Shown here: piece after piece, positions 1-58,072 of the stretch
Layout: each line of letters begins with the position of its first letter
How positions within the stretch are numbered: position 1 is the stretch's first letter
From: Chryseobacterium binzhouense
GTDB lineage: Bacteria > Bacteroidota > Bacteroidia > Flavobacteriales > Weeksellaceae
Assembly: GCF_007474545.1 (NCBI RefSeq)
Contig: NZ_VKOG01000001.1
Location: forward strand, 1,201,463 to 1,265,462
Direction: 5' to 3'
DNA: 64,000 nucleotides
Notes under the pieces: generated by a model
Database searches by the model: none
Told to the model about the DNA's origin: nothing
Seen by the model: only the letters and a program-made list of their open reading frames with translations
Position numbers and translations under genes: made by a program

Positions 1-27
1 ATACAAACTAAACTGATTCGCATTTCT

Positions 28-50
28 TATATTTGCTAAACACAAATATA
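28..50. promoter_or_regulatory. Candidate face-to-face promoter -7 elements
   Basis: TATATTTG at 28-35 on the plus strand and the same octamer on the minus strand at 43-50 both fit the Bacteroidota -7 consensus TAnnTTTG. The plus-strand copy lies 20 bases before the first gene. I see no clear -33 TTTG at the expected distance, so only the -7 boxes support this. The minus-strand copy would serve a gene left of the window. Confidence 0.35.
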
Positions 51-54
51 CTTT

Positions 55-1050: not shown

Positions 1051-1053
1051 CAA

Positions 1054-1983: not shown

Positions 1984-1985
1984 AA

Positions 1986-3182
1986 TTAATTTTGAGCCAA
2001 TTCCATCTCTTCATCATCGTCTTCTTCAATATTTTTTGATCTGCTCAGAATAAAATACCCTAAAACAGCTGCCAGAAAAGAGGCTATCAATATCGCAAAT
2101 TTGGCTTCATCCTGAATGTCAATCTGATGTTTAAATGAAAGTAGAGCAATAAAAATTGACATCGTAAATCCTATTCCTGCCAAAAGACCTACACCCATCA
2201 TCTGGCTCCAAGAACTATTGTGCGGGAGCGAACTGATTTTTAATTTAACCGCAATAAAAGAAAGAAGATTAATACCAATCAGTTTACCTAAAACAAGCCC
2301 ACAAATGATTCCTAATCCCAAACTGCTGAATAAGCCATCTGTCATTCCGCTTTTGAATGCTATATTGGTGTTTGTCAACGCAAAAATAGGCATAATGATA
2401 AAACTTACCGGAAAATGCAGAGATCGCTCCAGCTTTTCTAAGGGAGAAATTTTTATGTTGGAAACATTCGTAGGAATGCTAAACGCCAGCAAAACTCCTG
2501 CAATAGTCGCATGAATCCCTGAATGGTGCAGATAATACCACAAAAAGATTCCCGGAATAATGTAAAAGATAATTCTTTTAATTTTTAAATAATTAAGTGC
2601 AAATAAGAATGCTGTAATGCCCAGCGAAAGCCAGAGGTTCATCCATTGTATTTCATCAGTATAGAAAATAGCAATAACCAGAATGGCTCCAAGATCATCA
2701 ACAATTGCCAACGCAGCAAGAAATATTTTCAGCGAAGAAGGAACTCTTTTTCCCAACATGGAAATAATTGCCAATGAAAATGCAATATCTGTTGCCATAG
2801 GAATTCCCCAGCCTTTGCTGTAAGCTGTACCATTATTGAAAAGACTGTATATCACCGCGGGAACCAGCATTCCGCCAATGGCGGCAAAAATCGGAAGAGA
2901 GGCATTTTTAAATGAAGATAATTCGCCTTCTACCAACTCTCTTTTGATTTCTAATCCTACCAGGAGAAAAAATACAGACATTAAGCCATCATTGATCCAA
3001 ATACTTATCGGATACTGTAGATGAAGACTTTCTATCCCGATTTTTGTATCTAAAAATATCTGAAAATGTTCACCTAAACCTGTATTGGCAATGATGAGCG
3101 CCAATATTACACAGCAAATAAGCAAAATACCTGATGACTGGCTGCTTTGAAAAAATTTTTTGAAATATACAGATAACTTCAT
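1986..3182 (-). CDS. nhaA: Na+/H+ antiporter NhaA
   Basis: Electrogenic sodium/proton antiporter of the inner membrane, used for sodium and pH homeostasis. The 398 residues match the family length. Recognisable parts are the N-terminal helix after FKKFFQSSQSSG, the stretch DGLMSVFFLLVGLEIKREL, the MATDIAFSLAI segment and LAIVDDLGAILVIAIFY, which carry the conserved aspartates (the paired DD corresponds to the ion-binding site in NhaA), and LAGIGFTMSIFIALL near the C-terminus. The final acidic tail EEDDDEEMELAQN is a lineage-specific extension. It lies 11 bases downstream of rel on the same strand. Confidence 0.95.
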   Translation of the reverse strand: MKLSVYFKKFFQSSQSSGILLICCVILALIIANTGLGEHFQIFLDTKIGIESLHLQYPISIWINDGLMSVFFLLVGLEIKRELVEGELSSFKNASLPIFAAIGGMLVPAVIYSLFNNGTAYSKGWGIPMATDIAFSLAIISMLGKRVPSSLKIFLAALAIVDDLGAILVIAIFYTDEIQWMNLWLSLGITAFLFALNYLKIKRIIFYIIPGIFLWYYLHHSGIHATIAGVLLAFSIPTNVSNIKISPLEKLERSLHFPVSFIIMPIFALTNTNIAFKSGMTDGLFSSLGLGIICGLVLGKLIGINLLSFIAVKLKISSLPHNSSWSQMMGVGLLAGIGFTMSIFIALLSFKHQIDIQDEAKFAILIASFLAAVLGYFILSRSKNIEEDDDEEMELAQN

Positions 3183-3193
3183 TCTTTATGATT

Positions 3194-5398: not shown

Positions 5399-5461
5399 CT
5401 GTGTAAAAGCTTTATTGGAACGAAAGTACGAAAAAATAAGGATTTTCCCGGGTTACACAAC

Positions 5462-5489
5462 AAAAAATCCGCAGAAAAATATCTACGGA
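5462..5489 (-). terminator. Rho-independent terminator after the 5525-5887 gene
   Basis: On the minus strand the arm TCCGTAG and the arm CTGCGGA (one G-T pair) enclose an eight-base loop, followed by TTTTTTG. It lies between the end of the 5525-5887 gene and the start of rel, so it separates the two transcripts. Confidence 0.6.
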
Positions 5490-5524
5490 CTCCGGTTAAA
5501 AGTTTTTATCTTTTGGTTAGTTTT

Positions 5525-5887
5525 TTAGGCTTTCACTTCAGAGGTAATTCCATCATGCTGAACTTTTATTCTGACATTCGGGCTGTTGTGAATTTCGGCT
5601 TTGCACCGTGCATCTATCAGTTTTTTAAGATGACTGTACGAAGCCTGGTTGATACTCATGTTTTCAAATAAATAAGTCTTAAGAACCTGATTCTGATCAA
5701 AAATGTGCCTGATTTTTTCGGTCAGATCTCTGTTCTTTATTTCTACACTCACCAACAACTGGGAGTTATGATCCTCACTAAGATAAACAATATACTCGGA
5801 ATCCCGAATGCCTGAACTTTCCAGTTCCAGCTCGAGTTTTTTGTAATCATTCTGATGGCTGAACATTCCTGCTAAGATACTCGACAT
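5525..5887 (-). CDS. Conserved small hypothetical protein
   Basis: A 120-residue soluble protein that I do not recognise. It begins MSSILAGMFSHQNDYKKLE and has mixed helix/strand character, without signal peptide, membrane segment or cysteine cluster. Its segment EYIVYLSEDHNSQLLVSVEI followed by a charged helix and a basic C-terminal strand (VRIKVQHDG) suggests a compact alpha/beta fold. It is monocistronic: a terminator follows and more than 180 non-coding bases separate it from acs upstream. Its codon use fits the neighbours, which supports a real gene. No function is proposed. Confidence 0.6.
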   Translation of the reverse strand: MSSILAGMFSHQNDYKKLELELESSGIRDSEYIVYLSEDHNSQLLVSVEIKNRDLTEKIRHIFDQNQVLKTYLFENMSINQASYSHLKKLIDARCKAEIHNSPNVRIKVQHDGITSEVKA

Positions 5888-6015
5888 ATTACTTTTGTTT
5901 TGGTATCTAAAGGTAGTAATAATTTTAATATCATTAAAAAATTTTTAATAAAATTTATAATATTTTATTTTATCTATAAAAAATTAATAAAATTTAAGAT
6001 GTTGTCTATTTTCGC

Positions 6016-6046
6016 AAATAAAAAACTCTGCTCAGCAGCAGAGTTT
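6016..6046 (-). terminator. Terminator after acs
   Basis: A perfect 10-bp stem (AAACTCTGCT at 6023-6032 and AGCAGAGTTT at 6037-6046, loop CAGC). Read on the minus strand it is followed by a run of T. It sits 23 bases past the acs stop codon. Confidence 0.8.
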
Positions 6047-6068
6047 AATGTTTATATCTGAACGGATT

Positions 6069-7976
6069 TTAAATCCTTTCGTTTTTGATTTCTTCAACGA
6101 TTTCAGGATTCAACAAAGTGGTGATGTCTCCAAAATTGCTGAAATCTCCTTCAGCGATTTTTCTTAAGATTCTACGCATAATTTTTCCTGAACGAGTCTT
6201 CGGAAGTCCGGAAACAAATTGTATTTTATCAAGCTTAGCAATCGGACCGATCTGGTCTGAAATCAGTTGATTAATTTCTTTTTTCAGATTGTCCTTATCT
6301 CTGCTTTCTCCGGATTCTTTCAGAATAACAAAACCATACAGTGCGCTTCCTTTAATATCGTGCGGGAAACCAACAATCGCTGATTCTGCAACTGCAGGAT
6401 GTTCATTAATGCTGTCTTCAATAGGAGCGGTTCCCAGATTATGTCCGGAAACAATCACTACATCATCTACACGACCTGTGATTCTGTAATAGCCAACCTC
6501 ATCCCGCAAAGCACCGTCTCCTGTGAAATATTTCCCTGGAAAAGCCGTAAAATACGTTTCCTTGTATCTTTGATGATCTCCCCAAATAGTTCTTGCAATT
6601 CCCGGCCACGGAAAACGGATACAAAGATTTCCTGTAACCTGATTTCCTGTAATTTCATTGCGTTTATCATCCATCAAGACGGGTTGAATTCCCGGTAAAG
6701 GAAGCGTTGCATAGGTTGGTTTTGTAGGCGTAACGAAAGGGAGAGGAGAGATCATGATTCCTCCGGTTTCTGTCTGCCACCAGGTATCAACAATCGGACA
6801 TTTTTTGTTACCCACATGATCGTTAAACCAATGCCAAGCTTCATCATTAATAGGTTCTCCAACAGAACCGATTACTTTTAACGAGCTTAAATCGTGTTTG
6901 TCTACCCATTCTGAACTTTCTTTGGCCAGAGAACGGATCGCAGTAGGAGCCGTGTAAAATTGTGTAATTTTATGTTTTTCAATCACTTCCCAGAATCTGT
7001 CAGGTTCAGGATAGGTAGGAACGCCTTCGAAAATGACCGTTGTTGCCCCGTTAAGAAGCGGTCCGTAAAGAATGTAGGAATGTCCTGTAATCCAGCCGAT
7101 ATCTGCGGTACACCAATAAATATCATTTTCTTTATAATTGAATACATTTTTAAAAGTATACGCGGTGTACACCATATATCCGGCGCAGGTGTGAAGCATT
7201 CCTTTAGGTTTTCCCGTAGAACCGGAAGTATACAGGATGAACAGCGGATCTTCTGCATCCATAATTACGGTAACGAAATCCGGAGAGGCGTTTTCGTAAA
7301 GATCTTTCATCCAGAAATCTCTATGCTCCTTCATTTTTACTTCATTATGAGTTCTTTTTACCACTAAAACTTTTTCTACACTTGGTGTTTTTTCCAGAGC
7401 TTCGTCTACAATGCTTTTCAGATCCAGAACTTTGTTTCCTCTGTAACTTCCGTCTGAAGTGATGACCATTTTTGCTCCGCAGTCATTTACCCTTGAAGAA
7501 ACTGCTGAAGCAGAAAATCCTGCGAAAATAACGGAATGAACAGCTCCAAGTTTTGCACAAGCGAGCATTGTTATAGCCAGTTCCGGAATCATCGGAAGAT
7601 AAATGCAGACTCTGTCGCCCTTTTCGATGCCCATTTCACGAAGAACATTGGCGGTTTTGTTCACTCTTTTGTAGAGTTCGTTGTAAGAAATATGCTGTGC
7701 TTCTTCTTTCGGATCGTTCGGTTCCCAGATGATTGCCATTTTATCGCCTCTTACCGCTAAGTGTCTGTCGATGCAGTTTTTGGTAATATTTAATTTTGCA
7801 TTTTTAAACCACGAAATTTTGGCTTCATTCATATCGTATTTTACGACCTTGCTCCATCTCTGGTACCACACGAAATTTTCATCTGCAATTTTGTCCCAGA
7901 ATTTTTTAGGATTTTTGATCGATTTTTTATACTCTTCAAAATATTGCGGTAAGTTTTCTATCTGATAGTTTCTCAT
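6069..7976 (-). CDS. acs: Acetyl-CoA synthetase
   Basis: AMP-forming acetate-CoA ligase that activates acetate through acetyl-adenylate. The 635 residues carry the ANL-superfamily motifs: the P-loop-like LYTSGSTGKPKGMLH, DTWWQTETGG, YFTGDGALRDEVGYYRITGRVDDVV and the C-terminal PKTRSGKIMRRILRK, whose lysine after SG is the catalytic and acetylation-controlled residue in the family. The block downstream on this strand is all catabolic or transport genes for short acids, including a CrbS-like kinase at 11229-13934, which in Vibrio and Pseudomonas controls acs. Length and start are typical for the family. Confidence 0.95.
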   Translation of the reverse strand: MRNYQIENLPQYFEEYKKSIKNPKKFWDKIADENFVWYQRWSKVVKYDMNEAKISWFKNAKLNITKNCIDRHLAVRGDKMAIIWEPNDPKEEAQHISYNELYKRVNKTANVLREMGIEKGDRVCIYLPMIPELAITMLACAKLGAVHSVIFAGFSASAVSSRVNDCGAKMVITSDGSYRGNKVLDLKSIVDEALEKTPSVEKVLVVKRTHNEVKMKEHRDFWMKDLYENASPDFVTVIMDAEDPLFILYTSGSTGKPKGMLHTCAGYMVYTAYTFKNVFNYKENDIYWCTADIGWITGHSYILYGPLLNGATTVIFEGVPTYPEPDRFWEVIEKHKITQFYTAPTAIRSLAKESSEWVDKHDLSSLKVIGSVGEPINDEAWHWFNDHVGNKKCPIVDTWWQTETGGIMISPLPFVTPTKPTYATLPLPGIQPVLMDDKRNEITGNQVTGNLCIRFPWPGIARTIWGDHQRYKETYFTAFPGKYFTGDGALRDEVGYYRITGRVDDVVIVSGHNLGTAPIEDSINEHPAVAESAIVGFPHDIKGSALYGFVILKESGESRDKDNLKKEINQLISDQIGPIAKLDKIQFVSGLPKTRSGKIMRRILRKIAEGDFSNFGDITTLLNPEIVEEIKNERI

Positions 7977-31008: not shown

Positions 31009-34000
31009 ATGGCAAAACGTAACGACATAAAAACAATTTTAGTAATCGGTTCAGGACCCATCATCATTGGTCAGGCGGCGGAATTTGATTACGCAGGAAC
31101 GCAAGCTTGTCTGTCTTTGAGAGAAGAAGGCTACAAGGTAATTTTGATCAATTCAAACCCTGCAACGATTATGACAGATGTCGAAATCGCGGATAAAGTA
31201 TATATTGAGCCGATTTCATTTCAGTTTGTAAGTCACATCATCAGAAAAGAACGTCCCGATGCACTTTTACCAACGCTTGGCGGACAAACCGGTCTGAATA
31301 TGGCGGTAGAACTGGAAAAATCAGGGATTCTTGAAGAATGTAAAGTTGAGGTTTTGGGAACAAAACTTTCAGCCATCAACAGAGCGGAAGACAGAGATTT
31401 GTTCCGTGAATTGATGAGAGAACTCAATGAACCGGTTCCGGAATCTGATATTGTAAACACAGTAGAAGGAGCATTAAGATTTGCTGAAGAAATTGGTTAT
31501 CCTGTAATTGTTCGTCCTGCCTTCACGATGGGTGGAACAGGTGGAGGAATTGCTGCCAACGAAACAGAATTAAAAGAAATTGCCGAATTAGGATTGAAGC
31601 ATAGTCCTGTTACCCAATGTTTAATTGAAAGATCAATCGCGGGTTTCAAAGAAATAGAATATGAAGTAATGCGTGATGCAAATGACAATGCGATTGTAGT
31701 TTGTAACATGGAAAATATAGATCCTGTAGGAGTTCACACAGGAGATTCAATTGTTGTTGCACCATCTCAAACGCTTTCAGACAGAGAATATCAATTGTTG
31801 AGAAACGCTTCTTTGAAGATCATCAGAGCTTTAGGAATCGAAGGTGGATGCAACGTACAGCTGGCTTTAGACCCGCATTCATTCGATTATTATATCATTG
31901 AGGTGAATCCGAGAGTTTCCCGTTCATCAGCTTTAGCATCAAAAGCAACAGGGTATCCGATTGCTAAAATTGCGGCTAAAATTGCAGTAGGATTGACTTT
32001 AGATGAAATCATGAACCCAGTTACGGGGAAAACATATGCTTGTTTTGAGCCTGCTTTGGATTATGTAGTCACTAAATTCCCAAGATTCCCTTTCGATAAA
32101 TTTGAAACAGCGGACAGAAGATTGTCAACACAAATGAAAGCAACAGGTGAAGTGATGGCAATCGGAAGAAATTTCGAGGAATCTTTACAGAAAGCAATTC
32201 GCTCATTAGAAACAGGAATCAGACATTTAGGTTTAAAGAAAAAACAGGCAGAAGCTTTAACAGACGAAGAAATCGAAAGAAGAATCAGAGTTTGTGATGA
32301 CGAAAGATTATTCATCATCGGTGATGCTTTAAGAAAAGGGTACGATTGGGAACAGATCGTAGAATGGAGCAAAATAGATAAGTTTTTCATCTGGAAAATC
32401 AAAAAATTAATTGATTTTGAAAAAACAATTGCTGATAATAAATTTGATGTTAAAACTTTAATTGAAGCTAAAAAATTAGGTTTTGCAGACTTAAATATTG
32501 CTCATCTTTGGGAAGTTTCTCAGAGAGAAGTATTCAACTTCAGAAAAGAAAACGGAATTATGCCGGTGTACAAAATGGTAGATACCTGCGCCGCAGAATT
32601 CGAGTCTGAAACTCCTTATTTTTATGGAACTTACGAAGAAGAAAACGAATCTGTAGTTTCAAATAAAGACAAAATTATCGTTCTGGGTTCTGGTCCGATC
32701 AGAATCGGGCAGGGTGTTGAGTTTGATTACGCAACGGTTCATTCAGTTTGGGCAATCAAAGAAATGGGTTATGAGGCAATTATCATCAACAATAACCCCG
32801 AAACAGTTTCAACTGACTTCTCGATTTCAGATAAATTATACTTCGAACCTTTAACGGAAGAAGACGTAATGAACATCATTGAGTTGGAAAAACCAAAAGG
32901 TGTTGTGGTACAATTCGGAGGACAGACAGCGATCAATTTAGCAGATAAATTAGCCGCTCACGGAGTACAGATTTTAGGAACTTCTCTGGAGGATCTAGAC
33001 AGAGCGGAAAACAGAGATAAGTTTGAAAAAGCACTTCAGGAAATGCAGATTCCGCAGCCGTTAGGAAAAACGTCCACTTCAAAAGAAGAAGCGATAAAAA
33101 TTGCCAACGAGATCGGTTATCCGGTATTAGTTCGTCCGAGCTATGTTTTAGGAGGAAGAGCAATGGAAATTGTGTACACGGAAACAGAACTGGCGCACTA
33201 CATGGAAAATGCAGTTGAAGCAAGTCCTGAACATCCTGTCTTGGTCGACAAATATATGGTTGGAAAAGAAGTAGAAATTGATGCGATCTGCGACGGTGAA
33301 ACGGTAATCATTCCGGGAATTATGGAACATATCGAAAGAGCGGGCGTTCACTCCGGAGACTCAATTGCAGTATATCCTCCACAGAATATTTCACAAAGCG
33401 AGATCGAAACTTTGGTTGACTATACAAAGAGATTGGCAAAAGGATTAAACGTGATCGGATTGATGAACATACAATACGTTCTTTTCGAAGGAAACGTTTA
33501 TGTGATCGAGGTAAACCCAAGATCATCGAGAACCGTTCCTTTCTTATCTAAAATAACGGAAGTTCCGATGGCAAATTTAGCTACCAAAGCGATCTTAGGT
33601 CAGAAACTGAAAGATTTAGGCTACGAAAGCGGACTGGTTCCAAATAAAGAAGGTGTTTTTGTGAAAGTTCCGGTATTCTCTTTCTCAAAATTAACAAAAG
33701 TAGATATCTCTTTAGGACCTGAAATGAAGTCTACAGGAGAAGTTATGGGGAAAGACACGACTCTGGAAAAAGCTTTATACAAAGGATTGGTTGCAGCAGG
33801 AAGAAAAGTTCCGATGCACGGTTCAATCTTGTTCACAGTTGCAGATAAACATAAGCAGGAAGCAGCGGATCTGGCAGCAAGATTCCACGAAGTTGGTTTC
33901 AGAATCTGGGCAACGGAAGGAACGGCAAAATTCTTTGAAGAAAAAGGAATTCCTTGCAAAATAGGATACAAAATCGGGGAGGAGAGTGTCAACCTGATCG

Positions 34001-34191
34001 ACCTGATCCAAAAAGGAAAAGTACAATATGTTGTCAATACCATGACGAAAGGAAAACAGTCGGAAAGAGACGGTTTCCAGATCAGAAGAATGAGTGTGGA
34101 AAACGGTGTTCCTTGTTTAACGTCTATGGACACGGTTGAAGCCATCTTAAAAGTAATCGAAAGCATGAGTTTTAAAATGGAGACGATGTAA
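31009..34191 (+). CDS. carB: Carbamoyl-phosphate synthase large chain
   Basis: Makes carbamoyl phosphate from bicarbonate, ammonia and two ATP. The 1060 residues show two ATP-grasp halves. The first begins [24 protein letters not shown], with [16 protein letters not shown]. The second begins [23 protein letters not shown], with [16 protein letters not shown]. An MGS-like allosteric domain is at the end (about 930-1060). The duplicated layout and length are normal. It ends the pyrimidine transcript before a strong terminator. Confidence 0.96.
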
Positions 34192-34223
34192 TTGTCGGAA
34201 ATTTTAATGATTTACCATAAATC

Positions 34224-34259
34224 AACCTTACAGATTTTTAAAGTCTGTGAGGTTTTTTT
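34224..34259 (+). terminator. Terminator after carB
   Basis: AACCTTACAGA (34224-34234) pairs with TCTGTGAGGTT (34244-34254) with one G-T pair, followed by seven T. The 327-base gap up to the protease gene otherwise shows no convincing gene; a 74-codon frame at 34192 starts with TTG, runs through this hairpin and was rejected. Confidence 0.8.
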
Positions 34260-34518
34260 ATTTGAATTACCGAAAATTCTGAAAAAGGAATACAAATTAT
34301 TTTTGATTCTGAAAAAGGAATTCATTGATGTCTCGGAAGAAGATAATCAACAAGCATCAAAATATCACACAAAAGTGCTATTTTTTACAAAGTTGATATT
34401 GAATAACTTCGGATAAATATTTCAGGAAAATGTTGTGAATTATTTTAAATTACAGTAACTTTTTTTCTGTAATTTATAAGTGACTTTTTATTGACTAATA
34501 ACCTTTAAAACTTATATT

Positions 34519-37269
34519 ATGTTTAACTCTTTTAATGCTGCCGAAACAAAAGCAATTATTGTTGATAAGCTTGTGAATCAATACGGTCAGATTATCAAAG
34601 ATCAAAGCAAGCTAGAAGAAGCAAGGCTGCTGAATCACCCGCTTATTGATCTTGAAGATAATCAGAAGCGTGTAGAAACCAGAATAGCTCGTGAGAATCT
34701 TAATTTCAATCTTGGAATTGAAAGGATTATTGAAGAAAATGATTTGGTTGACATTGTCAATCTTTCTAAAATACTAAAAATATCTCAGTCTGTCTGCCGA
34801 ATTTTACATAATAACAAACCTGTGGGAACGGGTTTTTTAATCAACGGAAATATTTTAGTTACCAACAATCATGTGATTTCCAGTGAAGTAGAGTGTACAA
34901 ATATTAAGGCTGAATTTTTCTATGAACTTGATGAGGAAGGTAGAATACTGAATCCGGTACAGTTCAGACCAGAACCTAAAGCTTTCTTTTTTACTTCACA
35001 CATCAAAAAGAGTCCTGAAGATGAATTTTCCGGACTAGATTTTACCATGGTTGCGCTTGAAGAAATTAATCTTAGAGGAAAAAAAATTACAGATATTCCT
35101 TCTTTAGAACTGGATGGAAATATTGGTAAAATTATCAAAGGTGAAACCTGCATAATCATTCAGCATCCTAATGGTCAGCCAAAAAAGATTTCGCTAAACA
35201 ATAATTCTTTCTTTTCTGAAAATCAGGATCAGATTATTTATGAAACCGATTCTTTGCCGGGTTCATCAGGTTCACCGGTTTTAGCATTAGGAACGTGCGA
35301 AGTGGTAGCACTACATCAGACCGGGGTTCCAAAAATGGATGAAAACGGAAATCCTCTTACCAAATACGGAACTGTTGCCAACTCAGAAACTCCTGATGAG
35401 GATATTGAATGGGTAGGAAATGCCGGAATCAGAATCAGCAGAATACTGGAGTTTCTTCAAAAGAAAAATTTTGATAAGCCGGCTCATAATACTAAAAAAA
35501 ATGAAATTCTTGCAAGAACCAATAAAGCTAAAAAAGAGTTGGACGAAGTAGTAGAAAATCAGCCTGAAATATCTCTTACAGATGTTAAGAATGAAGCACA
35601 GAAGCTAAAAAATTCTGCATCAGATGCTAAATTGAAAGATGAAAATAAATCTGCAGCCGCTTTTGAAAAATTTCCGTTTATTATCCTGGCAAAAAACAAC
35701 CCTGAAAATTTCGAAAATCTTGAAGCTGAACTGAAACTTAATTATGGTAATGACTTTAGTCTTTACCTTGCAACTCCTGTCTCTGCAAAAGAAAATGAAG
35801 AAGAACTTTTTGTATTGAATATTTCTTCTGAAGGCAAAAATCCAAACGAATTTGCCAGAGAATTACTTTCATTAAAAGAGATTATTCATGCAGAATATGA
35901 TAGTGAGATTTATCTCAACATGGAAGTAACGTATGACAATGATTTGAAAGCTTTTGAAAGCTCTGGTTCTAAAGATTTTAATAATGAACAGCATTTTCTT
36001 GAGCTGTATAGCCAAACCAGCAAATATGTAAAAGGTAAAACCAAAGAACAGTACAGACAATGGAACTGGAAAGCTGTGAATTATAACTCAGCGATTACCG
36101 ATACTATAGGAGATTCCATAAAAATTGTTCAGTTTGATACCGGATATTCTCATCATCCGAAAAATCATGGTGCTTTTAATCTTTCAGAAGATTTTGATTT
36201 TGTAGACGATGATGATAATTCCAGAGAAGAGGAGCATCGCAAGATTACTTTGGCAGATTACGGTCACGGAGCCCGTACAGGAAGCATTATTATAGGAAAT
36301 CTTTATTCTGATGCAGAGGAAAACGGCAATTGCGGATTACTGCAGCAAAACGGAATAAAACTTATCCCTTATCGTGTTGCCCAGGATGTCCTGATTTTAG
36401 GAAGACAGGCAGAACTGGCAAAAGCTGTAGATGCTGCTATTGCCACGGGCGCAAAAGTAATTACCACGAGTATGGGACTTCCTCCAACGATGACAACATA
36501 CAATCTGGCAAAAAAAGTTTATGAGAAAGGAATTATATGGTGCTGTGCTGCAGGAAATGAAGTAAGAGAAGTGGTAGCACCGGCAGTACATCCCGGAACT
36601 ATTGCAGTCGCCGCCTCAAATCCGGATGATAAAGAATGGAAAGGCTCTTCAAGAGGGAAAATGGTTGATATTACAGCACCGGGAATGCATATGTATGTTC
36701 CGAAGTTTTTAAAAGAAAGCACAGGCTTATTCCGCTACGGAATGGGGTATGGTCACGGTACAAGTTATGCAACACCTCACGTTTCATCTGCAGCTGTTCT
36801 CTGGCTTTACAAAAACAGAGAAAAACTGAAAAACTATCATGGCTTTCAGATTATTGAAGCTTTCAGAACTTGTCTGAAAAGTTCGGCAAGAACACAGCAT
36901 CATCTTCCTGTAAATTTTGGAGCAGGTATTTTAGATATTGATAAACTTTTAAAAACAGAACTCCCGGATAGCTCAGACTTGATTGATGCTTACATAGATG
37001 AAGACATCAGCAGAGTTGCGATGACATTCAGAACCGTAGGAGAAAGCCTTAAAATGTTATGGAATGGAATTTTGAGAGGAATCAAAAAAGGAATTACTAA
37101 GGAAGAAAGCCTTATTGCCGAAGAATATGAAATGTCTGATCATGCTAAAAAAATTATTGAGCAGAATTCACCAACAGGATATTCAGCAAAGGAAAGCATA
37201 ACAAATCCTAATGTAAACAGAACTCTTGAAACATTCAACCTGATAAGAGAAAAAGTAGTTAATTCTTAA
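34519..37269 (+). CDS. Double protease: trypsin-like domain fused to subtilisin-like domain
   Basis: A 916-residue protein with two separate serine-protease triads. Residues 1-95 are helical and charged, ending ERIIEENDLVDIVNLSK, like the leader region of some conflict-system trypsins. The trypsin-like domain (about 95-310) has His118 in LVTNNHVISS, Asp174 in GLDFTMVAL and Ser250 in LPGSSGSPVLAL. A linker of about 200 residues follows (about 325-530, rich in Lys/Glu/Asn). The S8 domain (about 530-800) has Asp540 in IVQFDTGYS, His583 in DYGHGARTG, Asn680 in CCAAGNEVRE and Ser749 in GHGTSYATPHVS. There is no signal peptide, so it is probably cytoplasmic. It forms an operon with the next gene, 11 bases away. 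Role unknown. Confidence 0.85.
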   Translation: MFNSFNAAETKAIIVDKLVNQYGQIIKDQSKLEEARLLNHPLIDLEDNQKRVETRIARENLNFNLGIERIIEENDLVDIVNLSKILKISQSVCRILHNNKPVGTGFLINGNILVTNNHVISSEVECTNIKAEFFYELDEEGRILNPVQFRPEPKAFFFTSHIKKSPEDEFSGLDFTMVALEEINLRGKKITDIPSLELDGNIGKIIKGETCIIIQHPNGQPKKISLNNNSFFSENQDQIIYETDSLPGSSGSPVLALGTCEVVALHQTGVPKMDENGNPLTKYGTVANSETPDEDIEWVGNAGIRISRILEFLQKKNFDKPAHNTKKNEILARTNKAKKELDEVVENQPEISLTDVKNEAQKLKNSASDAKLKDENKSAAAFEKFPFIILAKNNPENFENLEAELKLNYGNDFSLYLATPVSAKENEEELFVLNISSEGKNPNEFARELLSLKEIIHAEYDSEIYLNMEVTYDNDLKAFESSGSKDFNNEQHFLELYSQTSKYVKGKTKEQYRQWNWKAVNYNSAITDTIGDSIKIVQFDTGYSHHPKNHGAFNLSEDFDFVDDDDNSREEEHRKITLADYGHGARTGSIIIGNLYSDAEENGNCGLLQQNGIKLIPYRVAQDVLILGRQAELAKAVDAAIATGAKVITTSMGLPPTMTTYNLAKKVYEKGIIWCCAAGNEVREVVAPAVHPGTIAVAASNPDDKEWKGSSRGKMVDITAPGMHMYVPKFLKESTGLFRYGMGYGHGTSYATPHVSSAAVLWLYKNREKLKNYHGFQIIEAFRTCLKSSARTQHHLPVNFGAGILDIDKLLKTELPDSSDLIDAYIDEDISRVAMTFRTVGESLKMLWNGILRGIKKGITKEESLIAEEYEMSDHAKKIIEQNSPTGYSAKESITNPNVNRTLETFNLIREKVVNS

Positions 37270-37280
37270 AAAATACAGAT

Positions 37281-38933
37281 ATGAAAAATATTTTTGATTT
37301 TCATTTTCATTTGTTATTCAAGCATTTGATCAGTATAAAAGATAATGGTCGTCTTCCTCTTGATTCCAACTTCAAAACAAAAGGATTGATGAGTGCGATA
37401 GATGAGTTTATGGGAAATGCATTCGACAGTCAGTCATCACCTCAGATGGTAAAAAACAGCCAGCTCGGATATGGAGTAACAGCACTGATGGCGATGGAAT
37501 ATGCTTTTGCAGAAAATATCAATGGCTTTTTCAAAGGGTTCAGTCCGTCAAAACTTCCCATCAACTGGAGTTTTATAGACCGAGTAAAAAACAGGGAAAC
37601 CACCTATTTTGATTTATTTAAAGAAGAAATTGCTTATTATCAATCAAATTTTACCAATTTAGAAAAAGATTTCAATATCCGCTTTATCAGCAGGAAACAA
37701 AAACCGGCAGAAGATATTTTCAGCAACCAGCAATATACTTACCTTGCGTTTTCTGTAGAAGGAGCACACAATTTTTCTGATGCAAGAATCAGAGAGTCTG
37801 GAGCTGTTACAGATCCCGGAAAATGTTATCGTGAGATTCAGGATGATAAAAATAATGTAGATTTATTCAGTATCAATCTTGTTCATCTCAGCGAAATTCC
37901 CGAGCAGCATATGTGTGGTTTTGCTCAGGCTCTCAACGGAACAGCTCAAACAGCATTCCGGAGCGAAGATTTTATCCCGAAATCCGGCTTTGGAATTTCA
38001 GATAAAGGTAAAGATTTTATCCGTTCAGTTTTTCTGCATCCTTATCCTTCTCTTATTGATGTAAAACATATGAGTGTATTTTCCCGCCACAAATTTTATC
38101 AGTTTCGCGAAGAATTGGGAGAAGAACATCCCGAAACGCTCAGACTTCCGATTATTTCATCGCATACAGGTTTTACATTTTCCTCGATCAAAGATTTTGT
38201 AGAGCAGAAAAATTACCGTTCAGGTTTCAGGTATGTTCAGGGCAAAACAATTTGTGAAATTCAGGCTAAAAACAGATTTATCGGTAAAACAGATTTTCTG
38301 CTGAATAATAAACTGTTTGCCAATCCCTGGACCATTAATTTATTTGATGAAGAGATAATAGAAATTATGCGCAGCAACGGACTCATCGGAATTTCGATGG
38401 ATCAGCGTATTCTGGGTGCAGCCAAAGGTACTGCAGATGGAATAAGACCTGAATATTTTAAAGATCCTGAAGCTATCCCGCTCTACGAATGGCGAAAATG
38501 GTTCAAAGAGGGAACTTTTGACCTGAAAGAATCTATGACAGCCACTCAGGGATATAAAACCGACCGTCAGATAAGACATATTTATCTTTTATGTGCACAT
38601 ATTATTTATGCAGTACGGTTGGGATATGCTGAGATGAATTGGGTGGGAGAGCGTAGTCCGTGGGATCACATCTGTATAGGTTCTGATTATGACGGATTGA
38701 TTAATCCCATAAATCCGTATGATGATATTACCAATATCGGAAAACTAAGAAATGATCTGCTGGTTTATTTGCCAGTTGTCGATAAACGTCTGGAGCCTCT
38801 TAGCGAAATAAAAGTTTTTAAAAATACAGGTTCAGAATCAATTCAGGACAGTTATCTTGAGGAATGTGTTGACAAATTTCTTTCTGAAAATGGCAAAAAG
38901 TTTTTGAAAAGATACCTCAATAACTGGTATTAA
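37281..38933 (+). CDS. Amidohydrolase/M19 dipeptidase-like metalloenzyme, partner of the double protease
   Basis: A 550-residue predicted metal hydrolase. The N-terminus reads MKNIFDFHFH, with His8 and His10 as the HxH metal pair. Glu160 in AFSVEGAHNFSD, a histidine in PIISSHTGFTFSS and the late HICIGSDYDGLINP follow the order of ligands in the M19 membrane-dipeptidase family (Glu bridge, His, Asp). It is about 150 residues longer than common M19 enzymes. No signal peptide or membrane anchor is seen. It starts 11 bases after the double protease and ends before a terminator, so the two form a closed two-gene unit. Substrate unknown; peptide fragments made by the protease are one possibility. 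Confidence 0.7.
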   Translation: MKNIFDFHFHLLFKHLISIKDNGRLPLDSNFKTKGLMSAIDEFMGNAFDSQSSPQMVKNSQLGYGVTALMAMEYAFAENINGFFKGFSPSKLPINWSFIDRVKNRETTYFDLFKEEIAYYQSNFTNLEKDFNIRFISRKQKPAEDIFSNQQYTYLAFSVEGAHNFSDARIRESGAVTDPGKCYREIQDDKNNVDLFSINLVHLSEIPEQHMCGFAQALNGTAQTAFRSEDFIPKSGFGISDKGKDFIRSVFLHPYPSLIDVKHMSVFSRHKFYQFREELGEEHPETLRLPIISSHTGFTFSSIKDFVEQKNYRSGFRYVQGKTICEIQAKNRFIGKTDFLLNNKLFANPWTINLFDEEIIEIMRSNGLIGISMDQRILGAAKGTADGIRPEYFKDPEAIPLYEWRKWFKEGTFDLKESMTATQGYKTDRQIRHIYLLCAHIIYAVRLGYAEMNWVGERSPWDHICIGSDYDGLINPINPYDDITNIGKLRNDLLVYLPVVDKRLEPLSEIKVFKNTGSESIQDSYLEECVDKFLSENGKKFLKRYLNNWY

Positions 38934-38999: not shown

Positions 39000-39032
39000 A
39001 GCCCTGTGATTATATTACAGGGCTTATTTTTT
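39000..39032 (+). terminator. Terminator of the protease operon
   Basis: AGCCCTGT (39000-39007) and ACAGGGCT (39017-39024) form an eight-base-pair stem with a nine-base loop, then TATTTTTT. Confidence 0.8.
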
Positions 39033-51530: not shown

Positions 51531-54500
51531 ATGACTAAAAATATACTTGGACTAGACTTGGGAGTTTCTTCAATTGGCTGGGCTTATGTTCAGGAAGATA
51601 CTAAAAATCCTGAAAATAATAAAATAGTAAAGCTGGGAGTTCGTGTAAATCCATTAACCGTTGATGAACAATTAAATTTTGAAAAAGGAAAGCCAATTAC
51701 AACCAATGCAGGAAGAACTTTAGCCAGAAGTGCGAGAAGAAATCTTCAACGGTTTAAGTTAAGAAGAGCCAATCTTATTGATGTTTTAAAGAAAAATAAT
51801 ATTCTTAAAGAATCTGACTTACTTGCCGAAGTTGGCGAAAATTCAACATTTCAGACTCAGGAATTAAGAGCAAAGGCAGCAAGAGAAAAAATAGAACTTT
51901 CAGAATTTGCCAGAGTTTTGCTTCTTATCAATAAAAAAAGAGGATATAAAAGCAGCCGTAAAGCTAAAAATGAAGAGGAAGGACAGATTATAGACGGAAT
52001 GGCTGTTGCCAAAAAATTGTATGAAGAGAATATAACACCCGGAGAATATTCATTTCAACTTTTACAGCAGGGAAAAAAACAGTTGCCAGATTTTTACCGT
52101 TCAGATTTACAGGCTGAATTTGATAAAGTATGGAATTTTCAGAAGCAATATTATTCAGAAATCTTAACCGATGACCTTTATAAAGAATTACAAGGCAAAA
52201 ATAAAAATGCAACTTGGGCAATTATGAAAGAGCCATTTTCTCTAGTTGGGATTAAACAAACCGGAACAATGCAGGAGAAGAAAGTTGAAAAATACTTTTG
52301 GAGAAGCGAAGCGGTAAAAAAGCAATTGGATTTTGAAAGTCTCGCTGTTGTATTTCAGGAAATTAACAGCAATCTGAATAATTCTAGCGGTTATTTAGGG
52401 GCGATTAGTGATCGAAGTAAAGAGCTTTATTTTCATAATCAAACGGTCGGAGAATATTTATTTCAGCAGTTGAAAGAAAACCCTCATACAAAGTTTAAAA
52501 ATCAGGTTTTCTACAGACAGGATTACTTGGATGAATTTGAGAAGATATGGGAAACTCAATCAAAATATTATAAACAACTAACGAAAGAATTAAAGGAAGA
52601 AATTCGGGATATTATCATTTTCTATCAGAGGAAGCTCAAATCACAGAAAGGTTTAATCAGTATCTGTGAGTTTGAAAACCGAGAAATTGAAATTATAGAA
52701 AATGGAAAAAAAAAAAAAGAAAACTGTTGGGCTAAAAGTGGCACCAAAATCTTCTCCTTTGTTTCAGGAATTTAAAATCTGGCAGGTTCTGAATAATTTA
52801 CAATTTCAAAATTTAGATACAAAGGAAATATTCCCAGTAGATTTAGATTTCAAGCAATCTATTTTTGATGAGGTGAATATCAAAGGAAAGCTTTCTGCAA
52901 AAGATGTTTTAGATCTTGTTGGTTATTCAGGAAAAGAATGGAAAACTAATTTCAAAGATATTGAAGGAAATTATACTAATGAAAATTTATATACTGCTTT
53001 TCTAAAGATTATTGCCAGTGAAGGAATAGAATTCCCAAAAGAATTTAAATTGACCATTGATGACGAAATTAAAGTTTCTAAAGTAAATGCTTCTGCAGAA
53101 ATTATAAAATTATTTGTCAGAGAAAAGTTTTCAGGATTAGGAATTGGTACTTCTATTCTGGATTTTAATCCGGAATTGGAAGGAACTGATTTTGAAAAAC
53201 AGGCTTCTTATCAACTGTGGCATTTACTGTATTCTTATGAAGGCGATGATTCCCCTTCCGGAAACGAAAAATTGTATGAATTGTTGGCAAAAAAATTTGG
53301 TTTCAAAAGAGAACATTCCAAAATATTAGCTGAAATTGGTTTTTCTCAGGATTATGGAAGTTTGAGCTCTAAGGGAATGCGAAAGATTTATCCTTACATT
53401 AAAGAGCATAAATACAGCGTAGCTTGTAATTATGCAGGTTACAATCATTCTAAAAATTCTTTGACCAAAGAGCAATTGGAGAACCGGATTTTGAAAGAAC
53501 AATTGGATATTCTTCCTAAAAATTCTTTACGAAATCCAGTAGTTGAAAAGATTTTGAATCAAATGATCAATCTTGTCAATGAAGTTTCAAAGGAATATGG
53601 AAAACCTGATGAAGTAAGAATTGAGTTATCGCGAGAACTCAAACTTAATGCGGAAGAACGTGCTACGATGACTTCTGAAATTAATAAAGCGACTATACAA
53701 CATCAGAAATATGCAGAAATTTTGCAAAGAGAATTTGGCATAAAAAGTCCTTCAAGAAATGATATTATCCGTTATAAATTATACTTGGAATTGGCAAATA
53801 ACGGCTTTAAAGATCTGTATACAGATGTAAAAATTGAAAGAGAAAATTTATTTACAGATAAGTACGATATTGATCACATCATTCCTCAGTCCCGATTCTT
53901 TGATGATAGTTTCTCCAATAAAGTCTTAGTTCCGAGAAGTGCTAATCTTAAAAAAGGAAATTTTACGGCTTTCGATTATCTTGAGAATGAAGGAAAAGAA
54001 AAATTAGAGAAATTTCTTAATGTCATAAAAGATCTTTATGATAAAGGTTTTATAACCAAAGCAAAATATGAAAAACTTCAGAAAAAAGGCATTGAAATAG
54101 GAGATGGTTTTATCGAAAGAGATTTACGTAATACTCAATACATCGCCAAAAAAGCTAAAGAAATACTTTTTGGGATAACCAATGCTGTTGTTTCTACTTC
54201 GGGAAGAATTACCGATAAACTTCGGGAAGACTGGAATCTTGTTAATACAATGAAAGAACTTAATCTCGAAAAGTACAGAAAATTAGGTTTAACGGAATTA
54301 ATTACAAATTCCAAAGGAGAGGAAAAAGAAAGAATCATTGATTGGACGAAGAGAAATGACCATCGTCATCACGCAATGGATGCTTTAACGGTTGCTTTTA
54401 CTACCCACAGTCACATCCAATATCTGAATTATTTGAATGCAAGAAAAAATGAAGCTCATAAAGAACATAAAATAATTACAAATATTGAAAATAGCATTAC

Positions 54501-55728
54501 AGAAATTGTAGAAAAGAAAAACGGATCAAAAGAAAGAAGATTCAAATTACCGATTAAAAATTTCCGTATTGAAGCCAAAAAACAATTGGAGGAAGTTCTG
54601 ATTTCTCATAAAGCTAAAAATAAAGTAGTTACCAAAAACATTAATAAAATTAAGAAAAAAGGAAGTATAATTGCAAAAACAGAATTGACTCCTAGAGGAC
54701 AGCTTCATAAAGAAACAATTTACGGAAGTTCGAAATTTCTTAAAACAAAAGAAGAAAAAATATCTGGAAAATTTGATTTAGAAATGATTCAAAAAGTTCA
54801 AAATGAAAAATATAGAAATGCTCTACTAAAAAGATTACAGGAGTTTGACGAAGATTCTAAAAAAGCATTCACCGGAAAAAATGTTATTTCTAAAAATCCA
54901 ATATTTCTTAATGCTGAAAAAACGGAACAATTACCTGAAACCGTAACTTTAGCTTGGTATGAAACAGGTTATACCATCAGAAAAGTTGTTAATCCGGATA
55001 ATTTTAAAGATTTTAAAAATATTGAAAAAGTTATTGATAAAGGAGTTCGTGATATTCTAACCGAAAGGTTAAAAGAATATAACGGCAACTCTAAAGAAGC
55101 CTTTTCAGATTTGGAAAAGAATCCGATCTGGTTTAACAAATCAAAAGGAATTTCAATAAAGACCGTTACTATTACAGGAATAAATAATGCCGAAGTTTTA
55201 CATTACAAAAAAGATCATTTAGGAAGAGAAATTTTAGATGAAAATGGTCAAAGGATAGCCGTAGATTTCGTAAGTACAGGAAATAATCATCACGTTGCAA
55301 TTTATGAAGATGAAAATGGAAACCTACAGGAGAAAGTTGTGAGTTTTTATGAAGCTGTTGAAAGAGTAAATCAGAATTTACCAATTATTGACAAAGAATA
55401 TAATTCTGAGTTAGGTTGGAAATTCTTATTTACAATGAAACAGAATGAAATGTTTTTATTTCCATCAGAAGATTTTGATCCGAAAGAAGCAGATTTATTT
55501 GATGATAAAAATCTGAGTTTGATTTCTAGAAATCTTTTTAGAGTGCAAAAGTTCGGATCATTGCTTTCTGGATTTTGGTTTAGACATCATTTAGAAACAA
55601 GTGTAGATGTAAACTCTGTGTTAAGAGGTACGTCATATAAAGTAATTCAAAGCTCTAATAATTTGAGATCTATTGTAAAAGTAAGGCTTAACCATTTAGG
55701 CAAAATTGTTCAAATAGGAGAATATTAA
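51531..55728 (+). pseudogene. cas9: Type II-C Cas9, split by a one-base excess in an A13 run
   Basis: RNA-guided DNA endonuclease. Two overlapping frames, 51531-52775 and 52702-55728, join at an A13 tract (52706-52718). With one A fewer they give a single protein of 1398 residues. Numbered in that joined protein: RuvC-I Asp9 in LGLDLGVSSIGWAY, the arginine-rich bridge helix near residue 65 (RRNLQRFKLRRANL), a REC lobe, the break at Gly392, RuvC-II Glu698 in VRIELSREL, HNH His782 in YDIDHIIPQS with NKVLV after it, and RuvC-III His947/Asp950 in HHAMDALTVAF. All catalytic residues are intact and no other stop is seen. It is recent decay, phase variation, slippage or a read error; the sequence alone cannot tell. 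tracrRNA lies upstream, and cas1 starts 10 bases after the stop. Confidence 0.88.
52706..52718 (+). repeat. A13 homopolymer at the cas9 frame break
   Basis: Thirteen A in a row, bounded by GG and G. Removing one A restores the reading frame. Runs of this length are prone to replication slippage, transcriptional slippage and sequencing error. Confidence 0.9.
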
Positions 55729-55738
55729 AGTTTAAGAT

Positions 55739-56632
55739 ATGATCACCCGCTCCATCTACATCGGCAATCCTGCCTATCTTAAGCTCAAAGACGAGCAGAT
55801 GAAAATCCTATGTCCGGAAACCAAAACGGAAAAGGGGAGTGTTCCTGTGGAAGATTTGGGATTGTTGATGCTGGATCATTACCAGATTACTATTTCTCAT
55901 CATCTGATTCAGAAAATGATGGGAAATAATGTTGTGGTCGTAAGTTGTGACGCACATCATTTGCCACACGGAATAATGCTTCCGCTATATGGCCATACCG
56001 AACATTCCGATCGTGTAAAAGATCAACTGGAAGCCAGTGAACCGCTGAAAAAGCAGCTTTGGAAACAGACGGTGGAATGCAAGATCGAAAATCAGAAAAA
56101 TGTTCTTATGAAACTGGGGAATTACTATGAACCGATGATTGAATATCAGAGAAATGTAAAATCCGGCGACGTTACGAATATGGAAGGGATTGCGGCGCAG
56201 CATTACTGGAAATACCTCATTAGTCTGGACTTTTTGAGACAGCGTTTCGGAGATTCACCCAATCAGTTTTTCAATTTTGGATATGCCGTACTCAGAAGCG
56301 TTGTCGCAAGAGCCATCGTAGAAACCGGACTGTTGCCTGTTCTCGGTATTTTTCATAAAAATAAATACAATCCGTATTGCCTTGCCGATGATTTAATGGA
56401 ACCTTACCGTCCGTTTGTTGATCTACTCGTGATGCAGTGGCTGAAAGTTCATCCGAATACTGAAGAACTGACGAAAGAATTTAAAGCGCATATTCTCCAG
56501 ATTGCGACCAAAGATGTGCGTATTGATGATAAAACAAGACCGTTGCTGGTTGCAGTAAAAACAACGGCTTCGTCGCTTTACAAATGTTACACAGGAGAAA
56601 AGCGACTGATTTCCTATCCGGAATTGATGTAA
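55739..56632 (+). CDS. cas1: CRISPR-associated endonuclease Cas1
   Basis: Integrase of spacer acquisition, 297 residues, of the type II form. The N-terminal beta domain begins with TRSIYIGNPAYLKLKDEQMKI. The catalytic helical domain shows MEGIAAQHYWKYLI (metal Glu), VARAIVETGLLPVLGIFHKNKYNPYCLADDLMEPYRP (metal His and Asp region). It follows cas9 by 10 bases and would be translated even if Cas9 is broken. No csn2 or cas4 is present, which places the locus in subtype II-C. Confidence 0.95.
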   Translation: MITRSIYIGNPAYLKLKDEQMKILCPETKTEKGSVPVEDLGLLMLDHYQITISHHLIQKMMGNNVVVVSCDAHHLPHGIMLPLYGHTEHSDRVKDQLEASEPLKKQLWKQTVECKIENQKNVLMKLGNYYEPMIEYQRNVKSGDVTNMEGIAAQHYWKYLISLDFLRQRFGDSPNQFFNFGYAVLRSVVARAIVETGLLPVLGIFHKNKYNPYCLADDLMEPYRPFVDLLVMQWLKVHPNTEELTKEFKAHILQIATKDVRIDDKTRPLLVAVKTTASSLYKCYTGEKRLISYPELM

Positions 56633-56667
56633 TTTTTTTATGGCAGCTTTATCCGCCTGTAGTTTAT

Positions 56668-56757
56668 CCTGAGCGGAGTCGAAGGGTTCCCGCTTTTTTG
56701 CAGATTTCCCACCGCATTTTTCCAACGTTAAAATCTGCAAAAAGAGCTCCACTCAGG
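56668..56757. repeat. 90-base palindromic insertion between cas1 and cas2
   Basis: Outer arms CCTGAGCGGAGTC (56668-56680) and GAGCTCCACTCAGG (56744-56757), inner arms TTTTTTGCAGATTT (56694-56707) and AAAATCTGCAAAAA (56730-56743). It fills the unusual 168-base gap between two genes that normally abut. It is a probable MITE-like or REP-type insertion. Confidence 0.6.
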
Positions 56758-56791
56758 TCGGGCTGCGACCATTACGATAAACAAACAATAG

Positions 56792-57139
<348 letters not shown>

Positions 57140-57163
57140 ATTTTAAATCCTGCAAACAAAATA

Positions 57164-57186
57164 AACCCACTGTAATTCAGTGGGTT
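57164..57186. terminator. Hairpin between cas2 and the CRISPR array
   Basis: AACCCACTG (57164-57172) and CAGTGGGTT (57178-57186) form a perfect nine-base stem. T-rich sequence follows on the minus strand (TATTTTGTTTG) and a shorter one on the plus strand. It could end both the cas transcript and a minus-strand array transcript. Confidence 0.7.
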
Positions 57187-57196
57187 AAATTTTGAG

Positions 57197-58072
57197 GTTG
57201 TGTCATATCTCAAAGATACTCAAAAATGAAAGCAATTCACAACGGTATGCAACTCAAACTCCTTAAACTTGAGTTGTGTCATATCTCAAAGATACTCAAA
57301 AATGAAAGCAATTCACAACCAGAAAGCCTCAATCTTTAAAAAGTTTGCAGTTGTGTCATATCTCAAAGATACTCAAAAATGAAAGCAATTCACAACGTAA
57401 CCGATGGCACAGGCACAAGGTTAGCAGTTGTGTCATATCTCAAAGATACTCAAAAATGAAAGCAATTCACAACTAAATTCTGTAATGTTTGTTTCTTCGG
57501 TCGGTTGTGTCATATCTCAAAGATACTCAAAAATGAAAGCAATTCACAACGAGGAAAGTTAAAACCACTAATCATCAAGTGTTGTGTCATATCTCAAAGA
57601 TACTCAAAAATGAAAGCAATTCACAACGCTTCTTGTAATTCTAATCGTGAAAGCTTAGTTGTGTCATATCTCAAAGATACTCAAAAATGAAAGCAATTCA
57701 CAACAACGTATATAATTCAAATTTTTTTGAAGTTGTTGTGTCATATCTCAAAGATACTCAAAAATGAAAGCAATTCACAACATAAGGCTTCAAGAAACAA
57801 AAACATAAAGAGTTGTGTCATATCTCAAAGATACTCAAAAATGAAAGCAATTCACAACAATTTTTAACTTCAAGAAGAATTTCAACCCGTTGTGTCATAT
57901 CTCAAAGATACTCAAAAATGAAAGCAATTCACAACGCGCTAATCTGCCATGTAGAAGACCCGCCCGTTGTGTCATATCTCAAAGATACTCAAAAATGAAA
58001 TCTAGCTTGGCAATTAGCGTTGGCGATTCGGCGAAGCCAAAGCAATTCAGAGCCTAGCCGATCAATTCACAA
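57197..58072 (-). CRISPR. Type II-C CRISPR array, 10 spacers
   Basis: Ten identical 47-base repeats start at 57197, 57273, 57350, 57427, 57504, 57581, 57658, 57735, 57812 and 57889, and an eleventh, starting at 57966, is interrupted after 35 bases. Spacers are 30 bases, except the first (57244-57272), which is 29. Each repeat begins GTTGTGTCATATCTC and ends GAAAGCAATTCACAAC. I give the minus strand because the tracrRNA anti-repeat pairs with the repeat end read in that direction (GTTGTGAATTGCTTTC) and because every repeat contains TATCTTTG on the minus strand, an exact -7 box, about 14 bases before the adjoining spacer. Confidence 0.95.
58001..58062. mobile_element. 62-base palindromic insertion in the last CRISPR repeat
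   Basis: After AAAAATGAAA (ending 58000) the repeat should continue GCAATTCACAAC. Instead 62 bases follow and CAATTCACAA resumes at 58063. The insert is an imperfect palindrome (AATTAGCGTTGGC facing GCCAAAGCAATT) and contains GATTCGGCGAAGCC. CAATTCA also occurs at its inner right side (58043-58049), which may be a target duplication. Confidence 0.6.

Follow-up and report, generated by a model that had tools for sequence, protein, structure and literature searches.

A twin-protease protein and its M19-fold partner in Chryseobacterium binzhouense: a candidate protease-gated death or conflict module

Organization of the two-gene unit

A 64,000-nucleotide stretch of the Chryseobacterium binzhouense genome (contig NZ_VKOG01000001.1), referred to below as the window, was analyzed for a unit of two genes, P1 and P2, that encode a protein with two protease domains and a putative metallohydrolase. 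L and G numbers denote the loci and genomes with which these two genes were compared. Both genes lie on the plus strand, separated by 11 bases, and they sit between carB (31009-34191) and a gene for a 161-residue protein of unknown function. Annotation with Pfam and NCBIfam identified carB, the 161-residue protein, an ABC ATPase and a membrane protein as neighbors of the pair in the window. The unit had been described earlier by a reader of the bare sequence (the original prediction), and the coordinates, lengths, spacing and residue numbers given for the two open reading frames all proved correct. The same description placed hairpins on both sides of the unit, and both are present. On either flank a stable hairpin is followed by T-rich sequence; a terminator pattern scan taken alone gave 2 sites against a mean of 3.1 in shuffled sequences, and it is the folding energies that distinguish the two hairpins (Table 1). 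The first hairpin is probably part of the carB unit.

Table 1. Features of the P1-P2 unit, with positions in the window
Feature	Position	Strand	Basis
Terminator-like hairpin downstream of carB, before P1	34224..34262	+	-16.7 kcal/mol, z -6.5 for 34224-34254
P1, 916 residues: helical leader, trypsin-like, propeptide, subtilisin, helical tail	34519..37269	+	open reading frame, Pfam, predicted model, fold match
P1 residues 1-95, helical leader	34519..34803	+	predicted model, low to moderate confidence
P1 residues 97-320, trypsin-like domain, H118/D174/S250	34807..35478	+	Pfam, conservation
P1 residues 383-470, I9-type propeptide, strand-helix-strand-strand-helix-strand	35665..35928	+	predicted model, fold match
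P1 residues 509-818, subtilisin (S8) domain, D540/H583/N680/S749	36043..36972	+	Pfam, conservation, fold match
P1 residues 819-916, C-terminal helical tail	36973..37266	+	model; detected in most paired homologues
P2, 550 residues: M19-fold metallohydrolase with DxHxH motif	37281..38933	+	open reading frame, Pfam, profile and fold matches
Terminator-like hairpin after P2	39000..39032	+	-16.0 kcal/mol, z -4.9 for 39000-39024

P1 combines a trypsin-like domain with a predicted pro-subtilisin

Pfam matched Trypsin_2 at residues 103-265 (E 2.1e-12) and Peptidase_S8 at residues 533-803 (E 4.4e-26) of P1. Two complete protease triads in a single chain had been predicted, and their residues are conserved over 25 aligned P1 copies: H118, D174, S250, D540, H583 and N680 are kept in every copy and S749 in 24, with glycine at this position in Kaistella palustris (L072). 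Both genes are under purifying selection, as the ratio of nonsynonymous to synonymous substitution rates (dN/dS) between the window and L050 was 0.079 for P1 and 0.069 for P2; for other pairs dS was near or above 1, or saturated. Because the catalytic residues are conserved and selection is purifying, chance open reading frames or a false triad are unlikely and were rejected as an explanation.

The helical N-terminal leader and the lack of a signal peptide, both noted before, were seen again. Helices fall within residues 5-91 of the predicted model, with a mean predicted local distance difference test (pLDDT) score of 40-81 per ten-residue block over residues 1-90, and reading the N terminus of the window protein by eye gave no hydrophobic signal. 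Residues 383-816 were modeled as an unprocessed pro-subtilisin with a clear match to pro-subtilisin structures, and therefore an I9-like propeptide appears to lie between the two proteases. In the predicted model it adopts a ferredoxin-like fold docked on the S8 catalytic domain, and flexible linkers are found at about 340-382 and 465-505; the Pfam scan gave no propeptide match in P1. This docking resembles that of pro-subtilisin E and pro-Tk-subtilisin, from which P1 differs in having no visible signal peptide and in the leader and the second, unrelated protease domain that precede the propeptide. The modeled propeptide-like domain (about residues 383-470) is new relative to the original prediction, and its position between the two proteases gives a concrete rationale for one protease unlocking the other. 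That both domains are true protease folds is thus well founded for the subtilisin part, with its structure match; the trypsin part is assigned from its sequence, the fold match covering the subtilisin part. As modeled, P1 resembles a latent subtilisin preceded by a trypsin domain.

The original prediction pointed to cytoplasmic trypsin-like domains with adaptor leaders in bacterial conflict and signaling systems, and the trypsin part of P1 does have kin among the proteins of predicted conflict systems. A stretch of P1 that begins at about residue 27-66 and ends with the trypsin domain, leaving the early leader uncovered, is 29-38% identical to other proteins; in these the stretch is followed by a DNA/RNA non-specific endonuclease or has a different context. 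The window's genus itself provides one example, a trypsin-NucA protein encoded by a different genome (L197). In Polaromonas and Ruegeria, plasmids encode a single protein in which S8 comes before trypsin, the reverse of the order in P1. The next genes downstream are, in Polaromonas, a trypsin-AAA gene and one annotated as ATP-binding and, in Ruegeria, one annotated as trypsin-like and a hypothetical one; both S8-trypsin proteins match the PADLOC models named nacht and subtilase.

Two further proteins with related domains were observed. The P1 trypsin model matches a 327-residue protein of locus L099 (from 13673 onward), where a P2-type gene without P1 lies ~3 kb away. In a genome of the same genus (L200:3781-6204), caspase (C14) and subtilisin (S8) domains are joined in one 807-residue protein, whose gene adjoins one for 1164 residues.

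P2 has an M19 dipeptidase fold with a variant metal motif

The gene downstream of P1 had been read as M19/amidohydrolase-like, and this assignment was upheld. P2 matched Peptidase_M19 at E 3.1e-5 with 23.7 bits, under the curated cut-off of 26; all 25 P2 members matched the family at E<=0.1 (best 8.8e-11), and structure comparison of the predicted P2 model gave the M19 dipeptidase fold. H8, H10, H263, H295 and D469 are kept in 25 of 25 aligned copies, and E160 and H202 in 24. The metal motif at the first strand of the M19 family is HxD, and all 25 paired P2 copies differ from it in carrying HxH. The same HxH motif was found in 49 of 55 further P2-type proteins; of the other six, five are fragments that do not include this end, and the protein of L105 (366 residues) reads HND. 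In L105 the M19-like HND gene (1733-2833) has as its neighbor an M19-type gene with HxH (2948-4549), encoded on the other strand. P2-type proteins (~520-600 residues) are also remote in sequence from the M19 membrane and renal dipeptidases (Lmo2462, 3lu2; human, 1itq; PDB profile E 0.03), and no signal or anchor is visible in P2. Two low-confidence loops of the model, 218-225 and 413-426, are poorly conserved. Conserved residues were sought in them for a HamM-style gating of P2, and E417 alone proved near-invariant, so that such gating was not favored.

The pair is patchily distributed and inherited together

The P2 alignment was used to scan 84,980 genomes, and the best 80 of 91 relatives were kept, giving 78 loci. 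An intact P1 lies directly upstream on the same strand in 24 of these loci, so that these paired P1 loci are ones found through P2. The pair is broken in one locus (L051), and no upstream P1 is seen in 53, in five of them because the P2-type gene starts less than 300 bases from a contig end (L077, L086, L100, L113, L125). The nearest named copy of the pair, at 92-93% identity, belongs to C. echinoideorum. Full-length P1 was found in 8 of 149 genomes of a genus sample, and P2 adjoins it in all eight, as expected if homologues keep the pair together. A family sample contained the complete pair in 10 of 198 genomes; P1 was present in seven of 60 genomes related to a Kaistella-type one, the seven belonging to a single genus, and a phylum-wide sample of 395 genomes yielded a single P1, that of the window's own genome.

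The pair is inherited together. The P1 and P2 trees agree save for local positions and their distances correlate with r 0.967, a value reached in 0 of 2000 permutations. A sign of horizontal transfer is that in both trees (support 100/100) it is the Chitinophaga copies, and not those of the same family (Kaistella/Leaf404), that group with the window clade; the P2 tree run warns of long branches meeting elsewhere in the tree. Judged from these sequences, the pair is patchy and has probably moved horizontally. Phage or plasmid cargo was rejected: P2 matched 1 of 72,556 plasmid records and nothing in a phage collection of 50,697 records, and P1 matched 207 plasmid records, only one of them over at least 80% of its length. 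On viral contigs, 93 stretches fit two peptide patterns but no relative is encoded in any of them, in a search limited to what the patterns catch.

Two degraded copies were seen. Genome G154 holds a 222-residue piece matching the end of P2, apparently at the site occupied by the pair in G194, as judged from the lengths of neighboring genes. In Chryseobacterium sp. E1 (L051/L202) the pair is broken, which may reflect an assembly error, because carB is also split and the genome is 75% complete.

These distributions bear on the alternative that the main toxin is P2, which P1 serves only to activate by proteolysis, in exact analogy to HamM activation and with the subtilisin domain making the cut. 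The fixed gene order, the co-inheritance and the low-confidence loops of the P2 model would suit such a system, as would the P2-type enzyme beside a caspase-CHAT protein described below. However, the loops are short and poorly conserved, and no P1 is seen in the 53 loci mentioned above, the five near contig ends included, so that we regard this reading as quite unlikely.

Genes adjoining P2 in other lineages

Peptidoglycan (PG) hydrolase genes accompany the pair in several lineages, always on the same strand. In two Chitinophaga loci the adjoining gene is PG-binding/CHAP. In three Zobellia loci it is PG-binding/Amidase_2, and in the one of these that was tested (L066) a trypsin gene comes before it. 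Amidase_2 genes flank the pair on both sides on a Hymenobacter plasmid, and in Rufibacter a PG-binding gene and then a patatin gene adjoin it. The Rufibacter locus (L056) also has two large genes upstream of the pair, 16-4323 (1435 residues) and 4358-6109 (583 residues), with no Pfam match. P2-type genes without P1 adjoin CHAP and patatin (L075), caspase-GDSL-CHAT (L081), Amidase_2 (L096) or patatin (L104) genes; in L081, from Larkinella rosea, a 1398-residue protein with caspase, GDSL lipase and CHAT parts is encoded directly downstream of the P2-type gene (L081:10752-14948). The gene set beside P2 would be typical of lytic or death effectors. PG hydrolases made up 10 of 292 genes near P2-type genes versus 3 of 682 far from them, with a Fisher p of 6e-4 that is biased and only descriptive because the seven queries were chosen from near genes.

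Such company may also indicate an antibacterial or lytic effector set that acts on other cells or is released on lysis, as contractile-injection cargo or in a bacteriocin-like manner, with P1 and P2 as cargo. The PG-binding CHAP and amidase proteins, the Rufibacter patatin and the two large Pfam-less proteins beside it agree with this proposal. It is nevertheless distinctly improbable, as the window unit consists of two genes bounded by hairpins and its Pfam-scanned neighbors include no secretion, injection or immunity gene, although no dedicated search was made.

Clustering near defense genes, which the original prediction had put forward as a check, did not emerge. A PADLOC scan of 90 of the 143 listed neighbors, from 12 of the 24 intact loci, gave scattered matches and no repeated defense partner, and a defense-island setting was rejected. 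The 25 of 86 families listed include a type IIG enzyme, methyltransferases, PglX and DrmMI, many of them also matching one L069 protein, together with IetA, a reverse transcriptase (RT_UG29), RTasDnaG-like and mad3 in one member each and dGTPase in two. BLAST comparison of the neighbors at 15 loci found few genes besides P1 and P2 that recur between lineages.

Two metabolic explanations were weighed against these neighborhoods. The first is intracellular peptide salvage or stress proteolysis, in which proteins would be broken down by P1 and the resulting peptides by P2 acting as a true dipeptidase, with no self-toxicity intended. The dipeptidase fold of P2, the purifying selection and the lack of a repeated defense neighbor fit, but the very patchy and probably horizontally moved distribution, the kinship of P1 with trypsin-NucA proteins and, in some lineages, the neighboring PG hydrolase, patatin and caspase genes do not; a twin-protease zymogen would, in our judgment, be superfluous for such a pathway, which we consider unlikely. 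The second is maturation like that of ribosomally synthesized and post-translationally modified peptides, with subtilisin and trypsin trimming a precursor and P2 trimming dipeptides. An NCBIfam match to a PatA-type subtilisin, far under the cut-off (32.4 bits versus 421), and a lantibiotic dehydratase ~5 kb downstream on the Hymenobacter plasmid, beyond transposase genes, favor this idea. The scarcity of recurring neighbors, compared by sequence and without functions, and the trypsin part of P1, which points to trypsin-endonuclease kin, make it highly improbable.

Other features of the window were recorded. Gene content after carB (window 34192-34518 and loci L204-L217, with 1.5 kb viewed) differs among 14 inspected genomes of the same genus, with some neighbors shared, and some of these genes resemble toxin-antitoxin genes by eye. 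It is possible that this region is a small insertion hot spot. A type II CRISPR-Cas locus lies at 51531-58019. Its cas9-like part is split into two frames that overlap, 51531-52775 and 52702-55728; the latter carries RuvC_III and HNH_4, and cas9 appears interrupted near 52.7 kb. They are followed by genes that we take to be cas1-like (55739-56632) and cas2-like (56801-57139), and by an array of 11 repeats with 76-77-base spacing that starts at 57197.

Comparison with known systems

System 3 of Kaur et al. 2020, in the part of that paper compared (PMC7159879), comprises trypsin-NucA fusions, some with S8 also flanking NucA in the chain, and effectors that may attack peptidoglycan. Its fusions carry a trypsin domain homologous to that of P1 (Trypsin_2, E 2.1e-12), whereas Pfam found no NucA (Endonuclease_NS) in P1, P2 or three downstream genes, and the fixed partner of P1 is an M19-fold enzyme. 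The main text of PMC7159879 contains neither "dipeptidase" nor "amidohydrolase". For the CARD-NLR system LypABC of Caulobacter, the portion of PMC13236601 used here describes LypC as trypsin plus endonuclease and reports that the protease serine is required for lysis while the nuclease residues are dispensable. The Polaromonas arrangement of S8-trypsin, trypsin-AAA and ATP-binding genes resembles LypABC, compared by layout only; no CARD-trypsin-ATPase or NLR gene adjoins the window pair. A Paracoccus trypsin protein and its ATPase neighbor, used as queries, gave no match in the window's genome in a search without positive control. The nuclease-protease pairs (Hachiman/AVAST, Canu), as presented in the compared part of PMC12799240, share with P1-P2 a protease gene fixed beside a metal-dependent hydrolase, in exchanged and co-evolving pairs. 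They differ in that their partner is an MBL nuclease and ours a TIM-barrel M19 enzyme, and in that the protease here is trypsin-propeptide-subtilisin without a sensor fusion, with no conserved gating site found in P2.

Membership in the NucA-trypsin, CARD-NLR and nuclease-protease pair families was rejected, since a defining part is missing for each. P1-P2 would work like the protease-triggered conflict modules, yet for each family compared it lacks a defining part. The style of the module is known and the combination of parts looks undescribed in the literature compared. Similar characterized systems exist (LypABC and the nuclease-protease pairs), but none in the source portions consulted has the same composition.

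Proposed mechanism and implications

We give an even chance to the reading that the pair is a latent module, of the type used in bacterial conflict or programmed death, which joins a two-stage protease to a metallohydrolase and in which death or lysis is gated by a zymogen. P1 would be made as an inactive cytosolic zymogen, whose leader-trypsin module may sense a trigger or be recruited to it. Trypsin cleavage or self-processing of the subtilisin in the modeled linkers (~340-382, 465-505) would then remove the I9-type propeptide, and the freed subtilisin would act as executioner. P2, which adjoins every intact P1 inspected, may be a second effector or may be switched on by P1. The end point would probably be damage to or lysis of the producing cell, because endolysin-like PG hydrolases or a patatin phospholipase join P2 in some lineages. 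A protease cascade had been proposed originally; the two proteases, the fixed partner, the kin of the trypsin part and the modeled propeptide support it in part, while cutting of the subtilisin part by trypsin, hydrolysis of the released peptides by P2 and a role in phage defense are not supported so far.

Several observations weigh against this zymogen-gated module. The Kaistella palustris copy (L033/L072) has glycine at 749, yet it retains the trypsin triad and the gene pair, and the P2 of L070 is without E160 and H202. The whole-P1 model is only moderate (pLDDT 69, predicted template modeling score 0.54), so the packing of its domains is uncertain. No conserved HamM-like cleavage site is evident in the low-confidence P2 loops, because these are poorly conserved except for E417. 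Pfam and NCBIfam annotation of the window neighbors showed no sensor (STAND/NLR) gene adjoining the pair, and to this is added the missing defense partner in the PADLOC scan. The seven PG queries found nothing near the pair in L049, L050 and L052 of the window clade, in the Kaistella/Leaf404 clade, in Spirosoma/Rudanella, in C. niastensis, in L062 or in the Hymenobacteraceae L060, L065 and L069. As these lineages, the window clade included, gave no match, PG hydrolases are optional partners at most.

A more specific form of the proposal, which we put forward tentatively and consider rather doubtful, is a sensor-less death module with a trypsin initiator and a self-inhibited pro-subtilisin executioner in one chain, and with the HxH M19 subfamily as a lethal or lysis effector that also serves caspase-CHAT, patatin and endolysin-like sets in Bacteroidota. 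The nuclease-protease pair study, in its compared part (PMC12799240), offers the best experimental template for probing P1-P2. If the proposal is true, a single bacterial chain would contain a protease cascade together with its own inhibitor, as a bacterial parallel of initiator and executioner caspases. A dipeptidase-fold enzyme would join the effectors of conflict systems, a role not described in the portions of the literature compared. The two-gene unit would then provide a small, testable system for asking how proteolysis alone, without an NLR, gets triggered.
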